DNA of 50,576 nt. Origin: Methanobacteriota archaeon (GTDB lineage Archaea > Thermoplasmatota > Poseidoniia > Poseidoniales > Poseidoniaceae). The position numbers were made by a program, and so were the translations under genes. The notes under the pieces were generated by a model. The model did no database searches. It was given only the letters and a program-made list of their open reading frames with translations, and was not told the DNA's origin. The stretch covers positions 1 through 50,576 of the forward strand of contig JABJFI010000106.1 of assembly GCA_018662825.1 (NCBI GenBank), given 5' to 3'. Below are positions 21,640-37,529 of the stretch, piece after piece; position 1 is the first letter of the stretch, and every line of letters begins with the position of its first letter.

Positions 21640-21779
21640 ATGGCCTTGGCTGAACTCCTCCCGTTCTTCAATGCACCGATGGCTCGCTGACCTAAAATAA
21701 TCTTGAAGATGCCTGTTTTCAAGCAAAAACTACCAAATCCAGCATTGGATTGATGAAGAAGGAGTGCTTGTCTTGACAT

Positions 21780-26037: not shown

Positions 26038-26097
26038 CTCTATTATTTTCTTTTATTCATGGCATTAGTCTAAATGCTAGTAAAAAGACGCAGTAAT

Positions 26098-29000
26098 ATG
26101 TCAAAAGGTACTACGATTGTAGTTTGTCTTTTGATGGTTGGAACTATTTTTGCTTCAGGTATTGGATTTGAAGATCAGAAAGTGATTTCCCAAGAAGGCA
26201 TAATTTCCTACACTGAAGATACTTCAAATTGGTCTGTAAATCCTTCATCGGGCCCTAGTGAAGGAGGTACTAATCTTACAATAACTGGTAGTGGATTTTC
26301 ATCATTATTAGATAATGTCACTCTTCCCGAAGAGATAGTTCGCTCTTGGACAAATACAACCATTGACAGTATTGGACAGTGGGGCTACGGCAACTCATTG
26401 GCCGTTGATTCAAGCGATAATATCCATATTTCTTATTATGATGAAGTCAATGGAGATCTCAAGTATGTCTCCTATGATGGTAGTTCTTGGAGTACACCGG
26501 CAACCTTAGACAGTACAGGAGATGTGGGCTGGTCACCCTCATTGGTCGTTGATTCAAGCGACAATCTCCACATTTCTTACAATAGTGCCTCAAGTGGGAA
26601 CCTCAAGTATGTCTACAATAATGGTAGTTCTTGGAGCATACCGGTAATCCTCGACACATGTTCATGCGGCCAACAGAACTCATTGGCCGTTGATTCAAGC
26701 GACAATCCTCATATTTCTTACCTTGATGCAGATATTACGGATCTCATGTATATCTCCTATAATGGTAGCTCTTGGGGAACACCGACAACCCTAGACAGTT
26801 CAGGATCTGTGGGCGGCGCCATCTCATTGGCCATTGATTCAAACGATAATATCCATATTTCCTACAATGATGGCACCAATAGTAAACTCAAGTATATTTC
26901 CTATGATGGCAGTTCTTGGGGCACAATACATGGAGTATCTGGTTCAGGAAATGTTGGCTACACTTCATTAGCCGTTGATTCAAGCGACAATATCCATATT
27001 TCTTACATCCAAAGCGGGTTTCTCAAGTATATCTCCTACAATGGCAGTTTTTGGGGTATACCGGGCGGTTCTTGGGCCATACCGGCAACCATAGACAGTA
27101 TAGGAAGCGGGGGTGAGTGGGCACCATTAGCCGTTGATTCAAGCGACAATCTCCATGTTTCTTACTATGATGTCACCAATAAAGACCTCAAGTATGCAAC
27201 CTATGATGGCAGTTCTTGGAGCACATCGGCAACCATAGACAGTATAGGAGATGTAGGTGGGTTGGCATCATTAGCCGTTGATTCAAGCGACAATCTCCAT
27301 GTTTCTTACTATGATGGCACTAATGGAGATCTCAAATATGCAAAATATTCCAGCAATCCAATAATAATTGAAGGACCAATTGCTCATTGGAAACTCGATG
27401 AATTATCAGGGATTCTTGTTGATTCAAGTGGAAATGGATGGAATGGCACTGCCTATAATAATCCAACCTTTGGTGTAGATGGTAAGGTTGGAACAGGGTT
27501 GAATTTCGATGGAGATGCGCATGTCAACATTTCGAATGATGGATTTGAGAAGGAGCGGGGGACCATCGCTTTATGGTATCAGATCAAGAACTGGAGTACT
27601 GACAATCACCAGCGCCATTTCGTAACTGATATAGGCATAAATCCTCCACCTAACTCCGTCCGTCACGCAACTCGGTTGTTATCTAATGGCTCACTAGACA
27701 TCTGGGAATACGGTAGTGGGGGTTTACAATTTAGCACACCTCCACTTCTATGGAATGATGACCAGTGGTATCATCTCGCATTTATGTGGGACTCGAGTGG
27801 AATATCAATACTTCGTGATGGAGCAATAGTTGGCCAGACCAATCAGAACGGTTCTTTTAGCTATGACGCAGCCAACTCAATGATTGGTAACGCCATCTAC
27901 GATATTGCATATAATAGTGGTACTGGAATCGGTGCTGCTGAAGGTGTTATAGATGATGTATATTTTTATGACCGCACTTTATCACTTAATGAAATACAAG
28001 ATTATTACTATGCTACTTCAGGTCCAATCGCTCATTGGAACTTTGATGAAATTGGACCACGCAATTGGGCTACTTCTACACTCAATTCAACTGGAACTTT
28101 AGGCACACACACTTCATTAGTTGTAGATTCCAATGATGAGATTCATGTATCATATTATGATACAACAAATACAAATCTGAATTATGCTCATTTTGACGGT
28201 AGTTCTTGGACACATTCCGTTATCGATACCTATTTTGTTGGTGAATACAATTCAATTGCAGTCGATTCAAATGATAATGTTCATATTTCATATTATGACT
28301 CATACAATGTAGATCTGAATTATGCATACTTTGACGGCAGTACCTGGTCGGTTTCGACCGTTGATACCGCGGGGGATGTTGGAAAAGATTCCTCTATTGC
28401 TATTGATTCCAATAATGATATACATATCTCATATTATGATGAGACAAATGATGATTTGAAGTACGCATTTGGAGTCGGCAGTGGAGTCAGTGTAACTTGG
28501 TCGATTTCAACCGTTGATAGTGTAGGCGATGTTGGTGATTATTCCTCCATTGCAGTGAATTCTTCGAATAATGCACATATCACTTATCTAGATGTTAGCA
28601 ATGAAAATTTGAAATATGCTTACTACAATGGCAACTCTTGGATAAATTCAACAATCAATTCAGGAGGGAGAGTAGATCATCAAACCTCTATAGCAATTGA
28701 TAGTTCTGATAAGATTCATGTTTCGTATTTTGATAATCAAAATAACAATTTGAATTATGCATATTACAATGGTAACTCTTGGGCAACCTCAACCATTGAT
28801 ACAGGAGGAGGCACAGGGTCTTCAACTGCTGTCGGGTTTCATTCCTCAATCGTTGTTGAAACTAATGGGAGGGCGTATATTTCGTATCAGGATATCACAA
28901 ATAGTGATTTGAAATATGCATTTTACGACGGTAATCAATGGTCGAGTACAACTGTGGAATCTATTGGTACTGTAGGTGATTACACATCTATTGGAATTGA

Positions 29001-32000
29001 TTCAAATGAAGAGATTCACATCTCTTATCGAGATTCCACTAATGACGACCTCAAGTATGCAAAAACCTCTCGTGATTATCTTTCCGACAGTTCTGGAAAT
29101 GGCCATGACGGCACATGTTCGACTACCACCTGTCCGTCATGGCATCCAAGCTATGGGAGAATGTGGACTGGAGCAATGTCGTTTGATGGAATTGACGATA
29201 ATGTTGACCTAAATTTCCGTTTCAATTCTCTACCACCGACTGGTTTCTCAACATGTATGTGGGTCAAAAACGATCGTTCAACCTTTTCCAATGCTAATGT
29301 GATATGGGGTACTGATGGCGGTGATGAGTGGAAAATAGTCCTTTCAACAGATGGTTCAATACAAACTTACATTCGTGGTACAGGCGGTGATGCAACCGCT
29401 TCTATGGAGAATTTTTCTGTGAGGATTGGTGGTAGTTTTTGGTGGCATCATGTTTGTTCCGTATATGATGTTAATTTAGGTGAATTACAATTGTATATTG
29501 ATGGTACAATCGGTAATACAGCTTATGTAAATCTAACTGGATTTAATCAAGGTGTAAATCAATTTCTTGGTTGCATGAGTCAAGTTAGTAGCCAAACCTG
29601 TCGTACAGATTATGACAATTTCAAAGGAAGAATTGAGGATGTTCGAATCTATGACCATGCTTTATCACCTAGCGAAATACAAGATTACTATATTGCCAAT
29701 ACCGAGCCATGGGGTCATTATACATTGGATGAAATAACCTTCGGTAATCATGTTCTGGATTCATCCGAAGGAGCGTTTCGTCAGGCAGGTAATGTTTTTG
29801 GTACACCAACTGAAGTTCCTGGAAAGATTGACATTGCTTTGAACTTTGATGGGATTGGCGATAATGATTCACTCGATCTTGGTAATGGTGCTACTGAAAG
29901 AATTATTCAATATGGTGCGATGACTTTTTCGACTTGGGTGAATGTTGAGCCAGGAATTACAGGAGACCCATATATTGCTAGTTTAGGTAAAGGAAATAGC
30001 AACTTAGGCTCATTGATTGGTTTAACAATCGCACCTAATGGGACTGTGCGCTTTTTTACACCATCTACAACAATGATTTACCCTATGATTTGGTCAACAA
30101 CTTCGATTGATGATGGTACATGGCATCAAGTTACTGCAACGTTAGAAGTTACAAATAATGTAGTAGAAATTAAATTATTTATTGATGGTATTTTAGAATC
30201 AAGCCTTTCAGGATTCCAATGGGATACATTTCAGTCAAATGAGGATTATTCGACTAATTTCTTTATTGGAACAATGAACGCTTATTCACCGAGTGCGCGA
30301 CTTCAACAATACTTTGATGGGAAATTGGATGATATTTGGTTGTTTACTCATGTTTTGAACAATACTGAAGTTGCTGAACATTATGGTTTCAATCTAACTT
30401 CAAACCAGACGCCATCTAAACTTTCAATACAATTCGGAGATTATGGCAATGTCACCGCAGATATCGTAAATGATACTACAATCACATTGGTCGCACCATC
30501 CGGTCCACCAACTGGAGGAGTTGTGAATCTCACAATGTGGCTAACAGACAACTATAGTATTGAGTTACCATTTGATTTCACTTATACCTATGATGACCCT
30601 GATAGAGATCTTGATGGAATAATAGATTCAATTGATAATTGTCCTGATGATTGGGGCAATTCCACAATTGGAAGTACTGGGTGTCCAGATGACGATGGAG
30701 ATGGATACAACAATTCAGATGATGACTTCCCTACTGATCCTGGAGAATGGAGTGATGGAGATGGGGATGGAGTAGGCGATAATGGCGATGCATTCCCTCA
30801 AGATGAGGATGAAACCGAAGATTCTGATAATGATGGAGTCGGTGATAATGGCGATGCGTTCCCATTGGATGAAAATGAAACTGTAGACAGTGATGGTGAT
30901 GGTATTGGCGATAATGCTGATGAATATCCTGAATTAAATAATTTCAATGATACAGATGGAGACAGCTTTTTCGATATTGAAGATGCATTCCCCTATGACT
31001 CATCACAATGGAGCGATTATGATGGCGATGGTCATGGAGATAATCTTGAAGGAAATGATTCGGATGTATTCATCCACAACATAACCCAATGGTCTGATAG
31101 TGACGGTGATGGGTTTGGAGACAATTGGGGTAATTCCTCATGGAATGCGACACGACTCTTTGTATGGCCAGGGGAATTTGTTGAAGGTGCAGAGTTAGCA
31201 GATCATTGCCCAACACAATTTGGTAATTCTTCAGCAGATGGATTCTATGGCTGTCCAGATGATGACAAAGATGGAATTGCAAATATGTATGATAATTCAA
31301 CCGATGATGAAAACGAAACAACACAAATTGATACTGACGGAGATGGAGTTTGGGACTCAGAGGATCTATGTCCTTCAACTGTTCCAGGTGGATTTGTTGG
31401 CCTAGATGGATGTATACTTGATGCAGATGGGGATGGAGTGGACGATCTAAATGATAGGTGTGCAAATACTCCACAATACATAATTGTCAATGTTGAAGGT
31501 TGTGAGATTGTAAAAGAACCTGAAGAGGAAACTGAAACCTACATGGAACAGTTACTTGCTGGTGATGAAGGAACTGTATTCAAAACGGTTGGTTATGGTG
31601 CAATACTAATTGCAGTTCTCGGGTTTATGCAAACAAATTTCGTTGCTGCAATGCTACCTGATGCATTTAGATGGGTTCAAGTCTTTAGGAAGAAATCTAA
31701 ATTAAGCACTGAAGAAGAACAAGAACTTGGATATTTGCAATCTGTTGTACAAGCCTATTATTACGATTCAGAAATTATGCATGAAGAACTACATCAATTA
31801 AAGTCTGATCTTACTGCACGATATACAAATAGTGAATTGAAAAAGGCCACTAGAGAGAAAATAAATACTTTGATTGCTGATTTACTAGAAATGGATAATT
31901 CTGAATTGAAGCGTATAGCCCACAATGATGCATACTTTGGACTAGCAGGTACAATCGATACAAAAGAGCGTTCAGAAATGTTGTCACAAGATTTGGCTAT

Positions 32001-32190
32001 GAGGATAGATGATACTGATCAATTCCAAGATGAAGGCCAAGAAATCTATGATACAAATATTCCAAGAGATTCGGCAGTAGGAGAAATCAATAAAGTTGAT
32101 GGTTACGAATATCTTGAATGGCCATCAAATAGTGGACGTTGGTTTATTCGAAATCAAAGAACTGAACATTGGGAAGAATGGAGAGATTAA
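26098..32190 (+). CDS. Giant anchored surface protein with nested TIG, propeller and LamG domains
   Basis: The protein has about 2030 residues. A signal peptide (TTIVVCLLMVGTIFASGIGF) starts it at ATG 26098; ATG 26074 adds eight residues. The first half of a TIG domain (SSGPSEGGTNLTITGSGF) lies at 26227-26313. Seven repeats of the SLAVDSSDNLHISYYD type follow (26344-27357), then LamG 1 (27379-28020). LamG 2 begins with IAHWNFDEIG at 28027 and is interrupted by seven more repeats (28057-29073). It resumes with LSDSSGNGHDGT and runs to about 29697. LamG 3 is about 29704-30400. The second half of the TIG domain (ITLVAPSGPPTGGVVNLT) is at about 30409-30600. Asp-rich thrombospondin-3-like Ca2+ repeats run from 30601 to about 31520. 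A membrane segment (about 31591-31650) and a helical tail ending in a WW-like WPSNSGRWFIRNQRTEHWEE complete it. Base composition looks more AT-rich than neighbours. An adhesin or glycan-binding role is inferred. Confidence 0.82.
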   Translation: MSKGTTIVVCLLMVGTIFASGIGFEDQKVISQEGIISYTEDTSNWSVNPSSGPSEGGTNLTITGSGFSSLLDNVTLPEEIVRSWTNTTIDSIGQWGYGNSLAVDSSDNIHISYYDEVNGDLKYVSYDGSSWSTPATLDSTGDVGWSPSLVVDSSDNLHISYNSASSGNLKYVYNNGSSWSIPVILDTCSCGQQNSLAVDSSDNPHISYLDADITDLMYISYNGSSWGTPTTLDSSGSVGGAISLAIDSNDNIHISYNDGTNSKLKYISYDGSSWGTIHGVSGSGNVGYTSLAVDSSDNIHISYIQSGFLKYISYNGSFWGIPGGSWAIPATIDSIGSGGEWAPLAVDSSDNLHVSYYDVTNKDLKYATYDGSSWSTSATIDSIGDVGGLASLAVDSSDNLHVSYYDGTNGDLKYAKYSSNPIIIEGPIAHWKLDELSGILVDSSGNGWNGTAYNNPTFGVDGKVGTGLNFDGDAHVNISNDGFEKERGTIALWYQIKNWSTDNHQRHFVTDIGINPPPNSVRHATRLLSNGSLDIWEYGSGGLQFSTPPLLWNDDQWYHLAFMWDSSGISILRDGAIVGQTNQNGSFSYDAANSMIGNAIYDIAYNSGTGIGAAEGVIDDVYFYDRTLSLNEIQDYYYATSGPIAHWNFDEIGPRNWATSTLNSTGTLGTHTSLVVDSNDEIHVSYYDTTNTNLNYAHFDGSSWTHSVIDTYFVGEYNSIAVDSNDNVHISYYDSYNVDLNYAYFDGSTWSVSTVDTAGDVGKDSSIAIDSNNDIHISYYDETNDDLKYAFGVGSGVSVTWSISTVDSVGDVGDYSSIAVNSSNNAHITYLDVSNENLKYAYYNGNSWINSTINSGGRVDHQTSIAIDSSDKIHVSYFDNQNNNLNYAYYNGNSWATSTIDTGGGTGSSTAVGFHSSIVVETNGRAYISYQDITNSDLKYAFYDGNQWSSTTVESIGTVGDYTSIGIDSNEEIHISYRDSTNDDLKYAKTSRDYLSDSSGNGHDGTCSTTTCPSWHPSYGRMWTGAMSFDGIDDNVDLNFRFNSLPPTGFSTCMWVKNDRSTFSNANVIWGTDGGDEWKIVLSTDGSIQTYIRGTGGDATASMENFSVRIGGSFWWHHVCSVYDVNLGELQLYIDGTIGNTAYVNLTGFNQGVNQFLGCMSQVSSQTCRTDYDNFKGRIEDVRIYDHALSPSEIQDYYIANTEPWGHYTLDEITFGNHVLDSSEGAFRQAGNVFGTPTEVPGKIDIALNFDGIGDNDSLDLGNGATERIIQYGAMTFSTWVNVEPGITGDPYIASLGKGNSNLGSLIGLTIAPNGTVRFFTPSTTMIYPMIWSTTSIDDGTWHQVTATLEVTNNVVEIKLFIDGILESSLSGFQWDTFQSNEDYSTNFFIGTMNAYSPSARLQQYFDGKLDDIWLFTHVLNNTEVAEHYGFNLTSNQTPSKLSIQFGDYGNVTADIVNDTTITLVAPSGPPTGGVVNLTMWLTDNYSIELPFDFTYTYDDPDRDLDGIIDSIDNCPDDWGNSTIGSTGCPDDDGDGYNNSDDDFPTDPGEWSDGDGDGVGDNGDAFPQDEDETEDSDNDGVGDNGDAFPLDENETVDSDGDGIGDNADEYPELNNFNDTDGDSFFDIEDAFPYDSSQWSDYDGDGHGDNLEGNDSDVFIHNITQWSDSDGDGFGDNWGNSSWNATRLFVWPGEFVEGAELADHCPTQFGNSSADGFYGCPDDDKDGIANMYDNSTDDENETTQIDTDGDGVWDSEDLCPSTVPGGFVGLDGCILDADGDGVDDLNDRCANTPQYIIVNVEGCEIVKEPEEETETYMEQLLAGDEGTVFKTVGYGAILIAVLGFMQTNFVAAMLPDAFRWVQVFRKKSKLSTEEEQELGYLQSVVQAYYYDSEIMHEELHQLKSDLTARYTNSELKKATREKINTLIADLLEMDNSELKRIAHNDAYFGLAGTIDTKERSEMLSQDLAMRIDDTDQFQDEGQEIYDTNIPRDSAVGEINKVDGYEYLEWPSNSGRWFIRNQRTEHWEEWRD
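26344..27357 (+). repeat. First block of seven propeller repeats
   Basis: Seven tandem units of roughly 45-55 residues (about 135-165 bases) share the pattern SLAVDSSDNxHISYYD, DLKY and YDGSSWS. Several units are close to identical in DNA, for example around 27127-27160 and 27270-27305. Seven units are the number expected for a closed seven-bladed beta-propeller. Confidence 0.8.
28057..29073 (+). repeat. Second block of seven propeller repeats
   Basis: Seven further units follow the same scheme as the first block (SIAIDSNxDIHISYYD, NLNYAYYNG, NSWxxSTID). They differ more from each other in DNA. The block sits inside the second LamG domain, between IAHWNFDEIG and LSDSSGNGHDG. Confidence 0.78.
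30601..31520 (+). repeat. Thrombospondin type 3-like calcium repeats
   Basis: Repeated Asp-rich units such as DSDNDGVGDNGDAFPLDENE and DTDGDGVWDSEDLCPST give the DxDxDGxxD ladder of calcium-binding thrombospondin-3 repeats. They form a probable rigid stalk between the nested head and the membrane segment. Confidence 0.85.
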
Positions 32191-33980: not shown

Positions 33981-36900
33981 TCACTTGAGCCAAGCATTTA
34001 GTGAGCGGCTGTTTCTAGCAATGCCAAAGCCGAATTGCTCTTCGAATGCACGTGCGACGAGTGTGAAATCTCCATCGCGTGTTGCAATAAGCACTGTTCC
34101 AAGGTCTTGCAATGATTGTGTGGCAAGTTGTGCAGCAATACACATCAAGGTTCGATCTGGAGATTCTGGATAAATATCTCGACCTTCTAGAACAGTGCGG
34201 ACCGGTTCACCTCGAGTTCGCTTCATTGCTGTGATTTCTTCATAGATTTCAGTCGATTCAAGCAAGAATTTTTCAATTGCTTCTTTGATATCACTGGAGC
34301 CTGCTTCAGATTCAATTTCCAAGTCTAGAGGCCTCCAAGTGTTGTAATCACTCAACACATCATCGACAAGTGCTGTAAGCGTTTTTTCGTTGAAGATATT
34401 ATCGAGTAAATCGGGCGATACAAGGGCATCATCAAATCGTCTCTTGAGATTATTCAATCCAGATGCAATGCCGATTAATTCTTGCTTAACCACACTTGGT
34501 AACCACAAATGCAATTTCTTGTCCTTCGCCTTACTGAGAAGGATTTTATGGAAACTTCCTTGCCCTTGGATATCAAGACTTATTTCACCAACTAGATGCA
34601 ATTTTGACGAGATACGGTCAATCAAAGCATCGACCAAAATATTTGTATCGACAATTACCAAAGGAATCAACGAAAGGTTTCGCAAATAACGACGGGATGC
34701 ATTTGGAATCTGAGATTTATTTACCGAGAAAAGAGAAAGTTCAGCCTGTTGCAAACTTCGAATTTCACTTTCGTTGAAATACGCGCTGTTTTGGGCACGT
34801 TCGAGGAACATCAAACCATCAACCGGACGAACTTTTGCAGCTTCACTGGCGAGAGAATAAACTTCTTCGGTCGAAGGTGAACCGTATTGCATTAGTTGAT
34901 TGAAACGAATATCGAATGTGTTCTTCTGTCTTCGACGGTTCTTGTGTAATGAATTAGTTGCAGCTGTGACTCGCCCACAGAAAGGATCTGTTGGGAGTGG
35001 GCGAGGGTGTTCATGAGGATAGGTTTTGAGCATGTCCAAATCATCTTCAGCGTAGTAAACTCGCATTACTTCGACCATCTCGCCTTCTTCATTTTCTTCC
35101 ACTTCCATTTTGGTTCTTGTAACGAAATCCTTCAACAAACGTGTAGCAGAATTGGTATCCTTGGATTTTGCTGTGTGAGAAACTCGAAGATACAATTGGA
35201 ATCGTTGGGTAATCGCACTCTTCAGAGCGGGTTGAGCGTCCAAGAGTTCAACTGCCTCTCGCCATTGTTCCGCGAATGCCAAGTGGATTAGGGCTTTACG
35301 ATATAGCGTGAGGGAGTACTCATAATCAAATTCTTCATGGTCACCTGCTTTCCGGTAATCTCTTGCTGCATTCAATTCTTCTTTTCTCGATGCATAGACC
35401 GCTGCGCGAGCAAGGGTGTGCCAAGGAGATAATGCATCGTTATTTTGGTACCATCGGACAAGAGATGGCAACCCAATATCATGCTCCAAAACAAGATGGC
35501 GAACACTGCGAATGACTCCTGTTGGGATGACATCGTTGCTCATAAGGGAATTGAGAGTTTCGATATGTTCCGGATCTGTATTGCCATGTTGGAGCATTAG
35601 AGCCACATGGTTGAGGCGCAATGTCGCTATTACAGCATTGAACAAGATACGTTCCATTACCGTGAGGTCTGCTGAAGCGACACTTTGTTCAAGATTCGAA
35701 AGGTGAGTCGAAGAAGCAATTCCACTGCCACCATCTCGAAGTGCTTGACGAACAGGGCCGAACGCTAACAATCCTTGCTTATCAAGCACCGTAGTAAGGC
35801 GTTCATCTTCGATGTTTTCTCCTTCAAACAACATCAACAATGCTTCAGAAGTTGATGAAAATGAATCTGGTGCATCCATACTGTGAACCTCAGAAAGGGC
35901 TGCTCTTCGTGCTGCACGAACCTGCATCCACAATTCATTATCACTTCCTGCATCCAGCAAATGAGATACAAGTAAGGTCTCATAGGGATTGGACATTGGA
36001 ACTAAATCATTGGAAGTGACCATCTTGGCAAGCAGATTCAATTCCATACTTTGTGTGTAAATGTCAATGAGAAGAGGGAATACGCTTTCCCAAGCCTCGC
36101 TTGAATCATTAGAGAGATTTTTTGCTGCCGCTGAACGGATGTGTAATGGCAATGTTTTCATCTGTATCAAGGCAACAATTGCTCCATCATCCAAAATTGG
36201 AATTTGTTCAAGTAGCCATTCATTGATAGATTCACTAGAGAGTTCCGAAAGAAGCGGGGCTAATGTGGATAATTCTGTATGATGATCGAGTTTGAGGCTT
36301 GTAAGAAGTTCAATTGTTTCTTTTGATTTCCCTTCCTTGTGGAGGGCATTTAAGCGCCACCACATTATTTTCTCAATTTGAACTGTATTAGTCGTATGTT
36401 CACGTAGTAATTCAAGACCTTCTGCAAGTTGTTTTGAAGTGAGTTTGGCCGCTTCTGGCGGCGTATGTTGCCAAGCCAATAATTGGCGTGCCACAGCCAA
36501 CGAATTGCTACCTTTTGCGGTTCTTGATTTCTTCCAATCCAGCACTTGACCTTGACGAAGACAATGTAAATCATTCAATTGTTCGGCTAAATCTGAATCG
36601 ACTGCTTTGAGGCGTTCAATGGATTCTGCAGGGTCATGACCTGATGCCAATGCAAGCAACACACTCAATGCTGAGCCTTGGCCTTCGAGTTGAAAAAGAA
36701 TCTCGGCTGGATGTAATTGCCGTCCAGAAGAGAGTTGAGATGCGATGTTTCTGAGCGCTACTTGGGATTCTGCATCTGTTACGGCAGGTGACAATTCATC
36801 AATGGCAATAATCAAATCTTCTGCAATCAATGGATTGATGAATGCCGAAGTCAATTTGACCTTCTTGCCTGTTTTTGCCTTACTGACCTTCGCTTTAGGA

Positions 36901-37370
36901 AAGGCTGCAAATTGTCCGAGAAGTGCGGTATGTTGAGCAAGTTCGTGCCAAACTGGATGCACTCCTTTTTCCAAACAGGTTTCTCGTAATGATTTTTCAG
37001 TGGTCTCCCATTGCTCTTCCCACTCCTCTTTGTTGAGAAGTTTGTGAATCATAAGCGTAGCAAGCCGATAAGCAGAACTGTACTCCGAAGGTAGGAGCAT
37101 TTCTATTGCGGGTGGAAGTGAATCCATTGGTCCTGATGAACCTCGACCCCCCCGACGGTTTCGACCTCTTCCACCAGATGAACGACGACGGGGTGTCGAA
37201 TCCGATTCTTCTTCATCAGCAGCTGGCAGTTCTGTCTCCGCTAGTGCAAGGAGAAGAATAGGCCGCCAAGACTTCTCAAGCAGTTGCCAATCAGCAGTTT
37301 TCACCACTAAGGATTGTCTACGGGGTTTTGTCAAGTTTGTTTTGAAAGCAACTTCTAAACAATTTAACAT
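33981..37370 (-). CDS. Giant helical-repeat protein with RG-rich stretch and C-terminal PIN domain
   Basis: The protein has about 1129 residues with no overall family recognised. Near residues 55-85 it has a low-complexity RG-rich segment (RRRSSGGRGRNRRGGRGSSG), as in many RNA-binding proteins. Residues about 100-890 are almost all helical with Leu/Ala-rich helix pairs, a likely alpha-solenoid of TPR/HEAT type. The last 230 residues form a PIN nuclease domain. Acidic sites are visible in LVIVDTNILVDALIDR, LPSVVKQELIGIA, SPDRTLMCIAAQ and LIATRDGDFTLVA, so catalysis is plausible. I start at ATG 37370; TTG 37385 has a GGGAGAG upstream and is an alternative. It converges with icd after three bases. 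An RNA-processing or decay role is inferred. Confidence 0.75.
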   Translation of the reverse strand: MLNCLEVAFKTNLTKPRRQSLVVKTADWQLLEKSWRPILLLALAETELPAADEEESDSTPRRRSSGGRGRNRRGGRGSSGPMDSLPPAIEMLLPSEYSSAYRLATLMIHKLLNKEEWEEQWETTEKSLRETCLEKGVHPVWHELAQHTALLGQFAAFPKAKVSKAKTGKKVKLTSAFINPLIAEDLIIAIDELSPAVTDAESQVALRNIASQLSSGRQLHPAEILFQLEGQGSALSVLLALASGHDPAESIERLKAVDSDLAEQLNDLHCLRQGQVLDWKKSRTAKGSNSLAVARQLLAWQHTPPEAAKLTSKQLAEGLELLREHTTNTVQIEKIMWWRLNALHKEGKSKETIELLTSLKLDHHTELSTLAPLLSELSSESINEWLLEQIPILDDGAIVALIQMKTLPLHIRSAAAKNLSNDSSEAWESVFPLLIDIYTQSMELNLLAKMVTSNDLVPMSNPYETLLVSHLLDAGSDNELWMQVRAARRAALSEVHSMDAPDSFSSTSEALLMLFEGENIEDERLTTVLDKQGLLAFGPVRQALRDGGSGIASSTHLSNLEQSVASADLTVMERILFNAVIATLRLNHVALMLQHGNTDPEHIETLNSLMSNDVIPTGVIRSVRHLVLEHDIGLPSLVRWYQNNDALSPWHTLARAAVYASRKEELNAARDYRKAGDHEEFDYEYSLTLYRKALIHLAFAEQWREAVELLDAQPALKSAITQRFQLYLRVSHTAKSKDTNSATRLLKDFVTRTKMEVEENEEGEMVEVMRVYYAEDDLDMLKTYPHEHPRPLPTDPFCGRVTAATNSLHKNRRRQKNTFDIRFNQLMQYGSPSTEEVYSLASEAAKVRPVDGLMFLERAQNSAYFNESEIRSLQQAELSLFSVNKSQIPNASRRYLRNLSLIPLVIVDTNILVDALIDRISSKLHLVGEISLDIQGQGSFHKILLSKAKDKKLHLWLPSVVKQELIGIASGLNNLKRRFDDALVSPDLLDNIFNEKTLTALVDDVLSDYNTWRPLDLEIESEAGSSDIKEAIEKFLLESTEIYEEITAMKRTRGEPVRTVLEGRDIYPESPDRTLMCIAAQLATQSLQDLGTVLIATRDGDFTLVARAFEEQFGFGIARNSRSLNAWLK

Positions 37371-37529
37371 GTGAGTCTCTTGCAATTCTCTCCCCCCTCT
37401 CCCGTTGGCTCAACCTACCCTCCTTCAACCCACCGGCATGGCCACCTTGAACTCAAAACGATTCGTTTTGATTAGAAGTCTGCCAACATCCTTGAACAAA
37501 GAACACTTGGGGTTCAATGGAGGACTTGG

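Follow-up and report, generated by a model that had tools for sequence, protein, structure and literature searches.

A predicted PIN-like nuclease domain joined to an alpha-solenoid in a protein conserved across the archaeal order Poseidoniales

The Poseidoniales, or Marine Group II, are abundant uncultured archaea of the ocean, and the window considered here, meaning the whole 50,576-nt stretch of a Poseidoniales genome that was analysed (GenBank assembly GCA_018662825.1, contig JABJFI010000106.1), contains a gene that raises the question of whether such an archaeon carries a very large helical-repeat protein ending in a nuclease domain and, if so, what that protein might do. An initial annotation had described an open reading frame of about 1129 residues starting at position 37370. 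The gene proved to be real, but that start is an internal ATG and was ruled out, since the starts of the homologs lie upstream; their alignments begin at an upstream TTG, ATG, or GTG and retain a glutamate, E3, which the shorter start drops, and for these reasons we preferred the TTG codon at 37385 as the true start, giving a protein of 1134 residues (Table 1). Present in one copy in its own genome (1.96 Mb in 123 contigs), the gene is probably monocistronic, given a convergent isocitrate dehydrogenase gene (icd) 3 bp away and a divergent gene upstream. A chance ORF was ruled out because, within the class, 152 of 195 genomes keep the gene, as a single open frame wherever the contigs permit. 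Close by in the window (26074-32190, plus strand) lies a gene for a protein of 2038 residues that carries TIG and Laminin-G (ConA-like lectin) domains, matches thrombospondin type 3 weakly, and probably sits at the cell surface.

Table 1. Position of the gene, its putative promoter element, and the predicted parts of its product in the window
Feature	Position	Strand	Details
Solenoid-PIN protein gene	33981..37385 incl. stop	-	1134 aa, TTG start
Putative tRNA-type core promoter element CGGTGGGTTGAAG	37423..37435	-	50 nt upstream of start codon
Arg/Gly box RRRSSGGRGRNRRGGRGS	37137..37190	-	Residues 66-83, in disordered linker
Alpha-solenoid	34710..37118	-	Residues ~90-892; conservation highest at ~630-810
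Solenoid motif YPxEHxxxLPxxPFxGRVxAA	34956..35021	-	Residues 789-810
PIN-like nuclease domain (predicted)	33984..34709	-	Residues 893-1134
D913, predicted metal ligand	34647..34649	-	DTN motif right after strand 1; invariant 43/43
E969, predicted metal ligand	34479..34481	-	Invariant 43/43
Helical insert in PIN domain, ~85 residues	34206..34460	-	Residues ~976-1060, between E969 and D1077 helices
D1077, predicted metal ligand	34155..34157	-	YPExxD motif; invariant 43/43
D1104 + D1106, predicted metal ligands	34068..34076	-	ATRDxDF motif after last core strand; invariant 43/43

From its N-terminus the protein consists of a helical pair, a conserved, disordered Arg/Gly box, an alpha-solenoid of about 800 residues, and the PIN-like domain. 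A full-length AF2 model built on 11 sequences was nearly all alpha-helix, with a mean pLDDT of 65.8 and values mostly between 70 and 93 at residues ~400-890, and its Foldseek neighbours were solenoids of the TPR, HAT, and HEAT type (e.g. IFT-A, SKI, NatA, Tom71), with TM-scores too low for any assignment finer than "alpha-solenoid". These results bear out the helical repeats claimed at the outset, and the strongest motif of the solenoid is marked by invariant Y789, L797, P798, G804, and R805. The RG-rich segment had likewise been recognised correctly. It lies within a linker of approximately residues 51-90 that is predicted to be disordered (pLDDT 27-36); RGG occurs in the same linker in 29 of 43 non-redundant homologs, and R78 is invariant in all 43. 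Arginine averages 22% of the linker as against 6.7% elsewhere, the mean net charge is +4, and an Arg-rich linker is retained in every one of the 43 homologs.

The case for a nuclease fold at the C-terminus begins with five acidic residues (D913, E969, D1077, D1104, and D1106) that were unchanged among the non-redundant homologs at identities down to 25%. A separate AF2 model of residues 885-1134, built on 17 related sequences that share 50-91% identity with the query, reached a pLDDT of 78.6 and a pTM of 0.79 and placed, in order, a strand at 907-912, D913, an E969-bearing helix, the six helices of the insert at ~977-1058, a helix starting just before D1077, and a strand at 1095-1101 followed by D1104 and D1106. 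In this model strands and helices follow each other as in PIN folds, and the acidic residues occupy the canonical places in that order. Profile-profile comparison (hhalign) against 22 Thermoplasmatota VapC-type PIN sequences gave E 5.3e-5 at a probability of 67%, and E 9.4e-7 at 91% when the insert was excised, the controls belonging to the unexcised profile. In those controls, 13 unrelated families and a reversed profile gave whole-domain E-values of 0.046 or worse with probabilities of ~1 or less, and half-domain matches had a probability of 3.3 at most. D1077 was not aligned with the third aspartate of VapC in the hhalign alignment; from the D-x-x-I and alanine pattern of its helix we infer that it would be the third acidic ligand.

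Database searches gave fainter signals. No PIN or other model of Pfam or NCBIfam reached its curated threshold, and the whole window protein matched no PIN family in Pfam at E 1. Its C-terminal segment alone matched PIN_12 at E 0.041, weak matches across the members of the family (PIN_12, PIN_3, PIN_4, PIN_5, and PIN) all started at the DTN strand 1, and NYN matched the C-terminal half of the domain, with E 3.6e-4 in one member. PDB sequence searches with the whole protein and with profiles matched no chain, and Foldseek of the PIN model against the PDB found nothing significant (best E 0.43, with nuclear exosome chains at E of about 4-5), whereas among the BFVD viral models the top two matches were annotated PIN proteins (E 0.0038, probability 1.00, and E 0.033, probability 0.93). 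Several XRN 5'-3' exonucleases ranked lower there, with non-significant E-values. The fold searches that had been proposed as a check thus came out in favour of the solenoid and, with the viral models, of the PIN domain, but not with the PDB. We consider the C-terminal domain very probably PIN-like, and the initial claim of a PIN domain with retained acidic residues was upheld by their invariance, by the profile match, and by the BFVD matches. The protein is a new PIN family whose architecture is of a known kind.

This combination had been called unusual for an archaeon. The protein is no one-off, being order-wide in the Poseidoniales; the remaining Thermoplasmatota that were sampled yielded no copy. 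The 152 genomes were found with a single-protein query and belong to two families, the Poseidoniaceae and what is presumably the other family of the order, the Thalassarchaeaceae (PMC6461757). A profile of 43 sequences found the gene in 61 of 243 genomes of the phylum, every one in these two families, with none in the family taken as Marine Group III or in other sampled Thermoplasmatota. Outside the phylum, searches covered the PDB, Pfam, NCBIfam, and the phage, plasmid, and viral collections, together with close relatives. A locus order common to both families runs through genes for a cobalamin adenosyltransferase, a NUDIX protein, a DHH-type protein (named from its DSDLDG, DHH, and GGGHA motifs), and a DUF4079-like membrane protein to the solenoid-PIN gene and icd; the flanking convergent isocitrate dehydrogenase and divergent membrane protein are widely conserved across the order, and the neighbour order downstream of the gene varies in part of the Thalassarchaeaceae. 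In some genomes a methyltransferase of ~229 residues adjoins isocitrate dehydrogenase (TPMT-like, Pfam E 1.2e-12 for the L152 copy; loci L118, L130, L132, L135, L146, L148, L149, L151, and L152), at some of these loci without the PIN gene.

Two genera, g9 of the Poseidoniaceae and g13 of the Thalassarchaeaceae, lacked the gene even when searched with the PIN profile. Because the flanking genes are contiguous there on one contig with the solenoid-PIN gene missing, these absences are real and an assembly gap was ruled out as their cause; the absences in genomes G094 and G098 are likely assembly gaps, with contigs ending beside the DHH-type gene, and that in G133 could be read either way. In a tree of the neighbouring genes g13 fell inside the Thalassarchaeaceae, and its absence is therefore a loss, while g9 was placed near the split of the two families with weak support, so that g9 is most simply read as a second, independent loss, though this is not proven. 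For L126 and L129 the icd-family gene is located elsewhere and distorts the concatenated tree, and that branch was discounted. The tree of the solenoid-PIN protein itself kept the two families largely apart. We conclude that the gene is order-wide and vertically inherited, and, since two genera do without it, that it is not universally essential and its function is dispensable or replaceable.

Upstream of the gene lies a 13-nt element, CG[AGT][CT]GN[GA]TT[GC]A[AT]D, which 35 of 43 homologs carry 31-60 nt before the start, where ~0.3 would be expected. Several genomes have the same element ahead of tRNA-Met or tRNA-Leu genes, at a distance of 37-39 nt, which ruled out a gene-specific regulator or a micro-ORF in the leader and is more simply explained by a core promoter. 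When a model made solely from seven Poseidoniaceae tRNA promoters was used to compare the gene with 150 other genes, all 20 copies from that family scored beyond the 95th percentile of the others and 15 beyond their maximum (Mann-Whitney p 3e-13, a value that overstates the case because related genomes do not yield independent copies). Judged by its sequence, the gene seems to be served by a core promoter of the tRNA type. The element, which precedes both the solenoid-PIN gene and tRNA genes, reads CGGTGNRTTGAAR in the Poseidoniaceae and CGATGTGTTGATG in the Thalassarchaeaceae and is not AT-rich, unlike the textbook archaeal TATA box; the window holds two copies, at 37423-37435 and 21666-21678, both on the minus strand. 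At two tRNA-Met genes of g9 (L151 and L152) roughly this position is taken by another sequence, the palindromic TTGAATATTCAAG. In many Thalassarchaeaceae copies a perfect inverted repeat, CGCCTTGCATAGCAAGGCG, is found just upstream of the promoter element, ~77-81 nt before the start (e.g. L063, L065, and L073), and several Poseidoniaceae copies instead carry CTCACCCCGTAGGGGTGAG beside the start codon.

Eukaryotes are known to use solenoid-PIN proteins for endonucleolytic RNA surveillance. Of the designs described in the literature consulted, the closest is that of SMG6, which with SMG5 belongs to metazoan nonsense-mediated decay. In SMG6 a TPR-like helical domain is followed by a connecting helix and a C-terminal PIN domain with D1251, E1282, D1353, and D1392 (PMC12923823), and the archaeal protein resembles SMG6 and SMG5 in its TPR-like helical domain with extended loops, its connecting helix, and its C-terminal D-E-D-D PIN domain. 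It differs in the large helical insert of the PIN domain and in the RG box near the N-terminus, and a 14-3-3-like domain was not identified in it, the solenoid model being weak for family-level assignment. PDB sequence searches gave no similarity to SMG6 or SMG5, and the resemblance, which lies in layout and residue order, is one of analogy and not of homology.

The reading that we favour, and hold to be reasonably probable, is that of a chromosomal, constitutive, metal-dependent endoribonuclease of the Poseidoniales with an SMG6-like layout, whose solenoid and RG box would dock on an RNA or RNP substrate. What we infer here comprises the nuclease activity, the RNA substrate, the pathway, and the part played by solenoid and RG box in docking. 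The PIN domain would bind one or two divalent metals through D913, E969, D1077, and D1104 with D1106 and would cut single-stranded RNA, while the non-cutting parts, the alpha-solenoid and the Arg/Gly linker with its positive charge, would dock the enzyme on RNA or RNPs and position the nuclease, possibly for general RNA turnover, surveillance, or processing. Against this reading stand the failure of any PIN model to pass its curated threshold, the non-significant PDB fold search, the dependence of the PIN model on 17 sequences of related proteins, the two genera that live without the gene, and a neighbourhood (icd, DUF4079-like, DHH-type, NUDIX, and cobalamin adenosyltransferase) that offers no operon partner in RNA metabolism.

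Other RNA substrates were weighed against the known archaeal machinery. A solenoid and an RG box would fit docking on RNPs, and together with the tRNA-type promoter they would suit a Nob1-like, ribosome-associated nuclease held on pre-ribosomes for rRNA maturation. Nob1 is itself a PIN-domain ribonuclease conserved in archaea, but it is a separate gene in the same genomes: PF17146 did not match the solenoid-PIN protein, its only match in the window genome was another gene (G000:C67), and a Nob1-type PIN was present in 14 of 14 genomes tested, including those that lack the solenoid-PIN gene, so that we regard this role, which two genera would also have to forgo, as unlikely. The same promoter, and the superhelical repeats that precede a C-terminal PIN-like nuclease in PRORP (PMC5039416), could instead point to a tRNA-processing enzyme such as a secondary RNase P or a tRNA quality-control endonuclease. 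Scaffold and PIN-like metallonuclease are indeed common to both, but the PRORP signature of aspartates and histidine, hhhD(G/A)xN ... DDx15-39(S/T)xDx3DH (PMC5039416), is absent from the archaeal protein, which has DTN, a single D1077, and TRDxDF in its place, and archaeal RNase P RNA was found at high score in the 14 genomes with or without the gene; we think a PRORP-like role quite unlikely. Since genomes with and without the solenoid-PIN gene alike retain RNase P RNA and Nob1 (14 of 14), the gene replaces neither, and such replacement was ruled out as its main role. In HARP, the minimal RNase P of the PIN_5 type, the PIN-like domain carries an inserted pair of helices, the spike, that is proposed to bind tRNA (PMC8266387), which offers a hint for the insert of the archaeal domain, although HARP consists of a PIN-like domain with two spike helices and forms dodecamers, whereas the archaeal protein has an 85-residue insert and a solenoid within 1134 residues. 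Across the 14 genomes tested PIN_5 gave no match over the cut-off, and among the homologs its best match, in a single member, had E 0.13.

The remaining readings, a DNA nuclease and a defence or toxin nuclease, seem less probable still. Flap nucleases are found among PIN-like folds, and the nearest same-strand neighbour of the gene encodes a DHH-type protein, which might suggest a flap- or repair-type DNA nuclease of the kind seen in the fold's FEN branch; the DHH-type gene remains where the solenoid-PIN gene is missing, however, so that there is no obligate pairing, and the XRN proteins among the fold matches are RNA exonucleases and were non-significant, leaving this reading very unlikely. 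VapC toxins account for most PIN proteins of archaea, and the solenoid-PIN protein shares with VapC (PF01850) the DTN and DxDF motifs and the profile-profile match. VapC proteins, however, are small and come with antitoxins, and no small antitoxin ORF adjoins the solenoid-PIN gene, which is flanked by convergent icd and the divergent membrane gene; VapBC was ruled out on these grounds, in agreement with the initial annotation, which had seen no toxin-antitoxin pair here. PADLOC returned no match to a known defence protein family, and the phage, plasmid, and viral contig collections held no match to the protein. Absence from two genera could fit a defence gene, but these null results ruled out a defence or mobile gene, as did the occurrence of the gene once per genome, at a fixed locus that both families share, and the separation of the two families in gene trees, and we regard a defence or toxin nuclease as highly improbable. 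Within the order, VapC-type PIN genes look absent (PF01850 matched in 1 of 31 Poseidoniales genomes, where it overlaps that genome's Nob1-type gene), and they are present in 43 of 77 sampled genomes of the phylum.

Beyond the favoured endoribonuclease lies a bolder proposal, which we consider doubtful, namely that the Poseidoniales, without any link to eukaryotes, evolved a dedicated RNA-surveillance endonuclease of SMG6 layout (a TPR-like solenoid, a disordered basic linker, and a D-E-D-D PIN domain at the C-terminus), expressed from a tRNA-type promoter as a core part of RNA quality control in these abundant archaea of the surface ocean. Our literature search found no paper on RNA decay or PIN proteins of the Poseidoniales. 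An order-wide archaeal protein of this layout, matched by no family model and bearing a tRNA-type promoter, would provide a clean test of whether the solenoid-PIN design had an independent origin, for which the genera without the gene would serve as a natural comparison, and the protein offers a testable nuclease candidate in an uncultured and abundant marine group.
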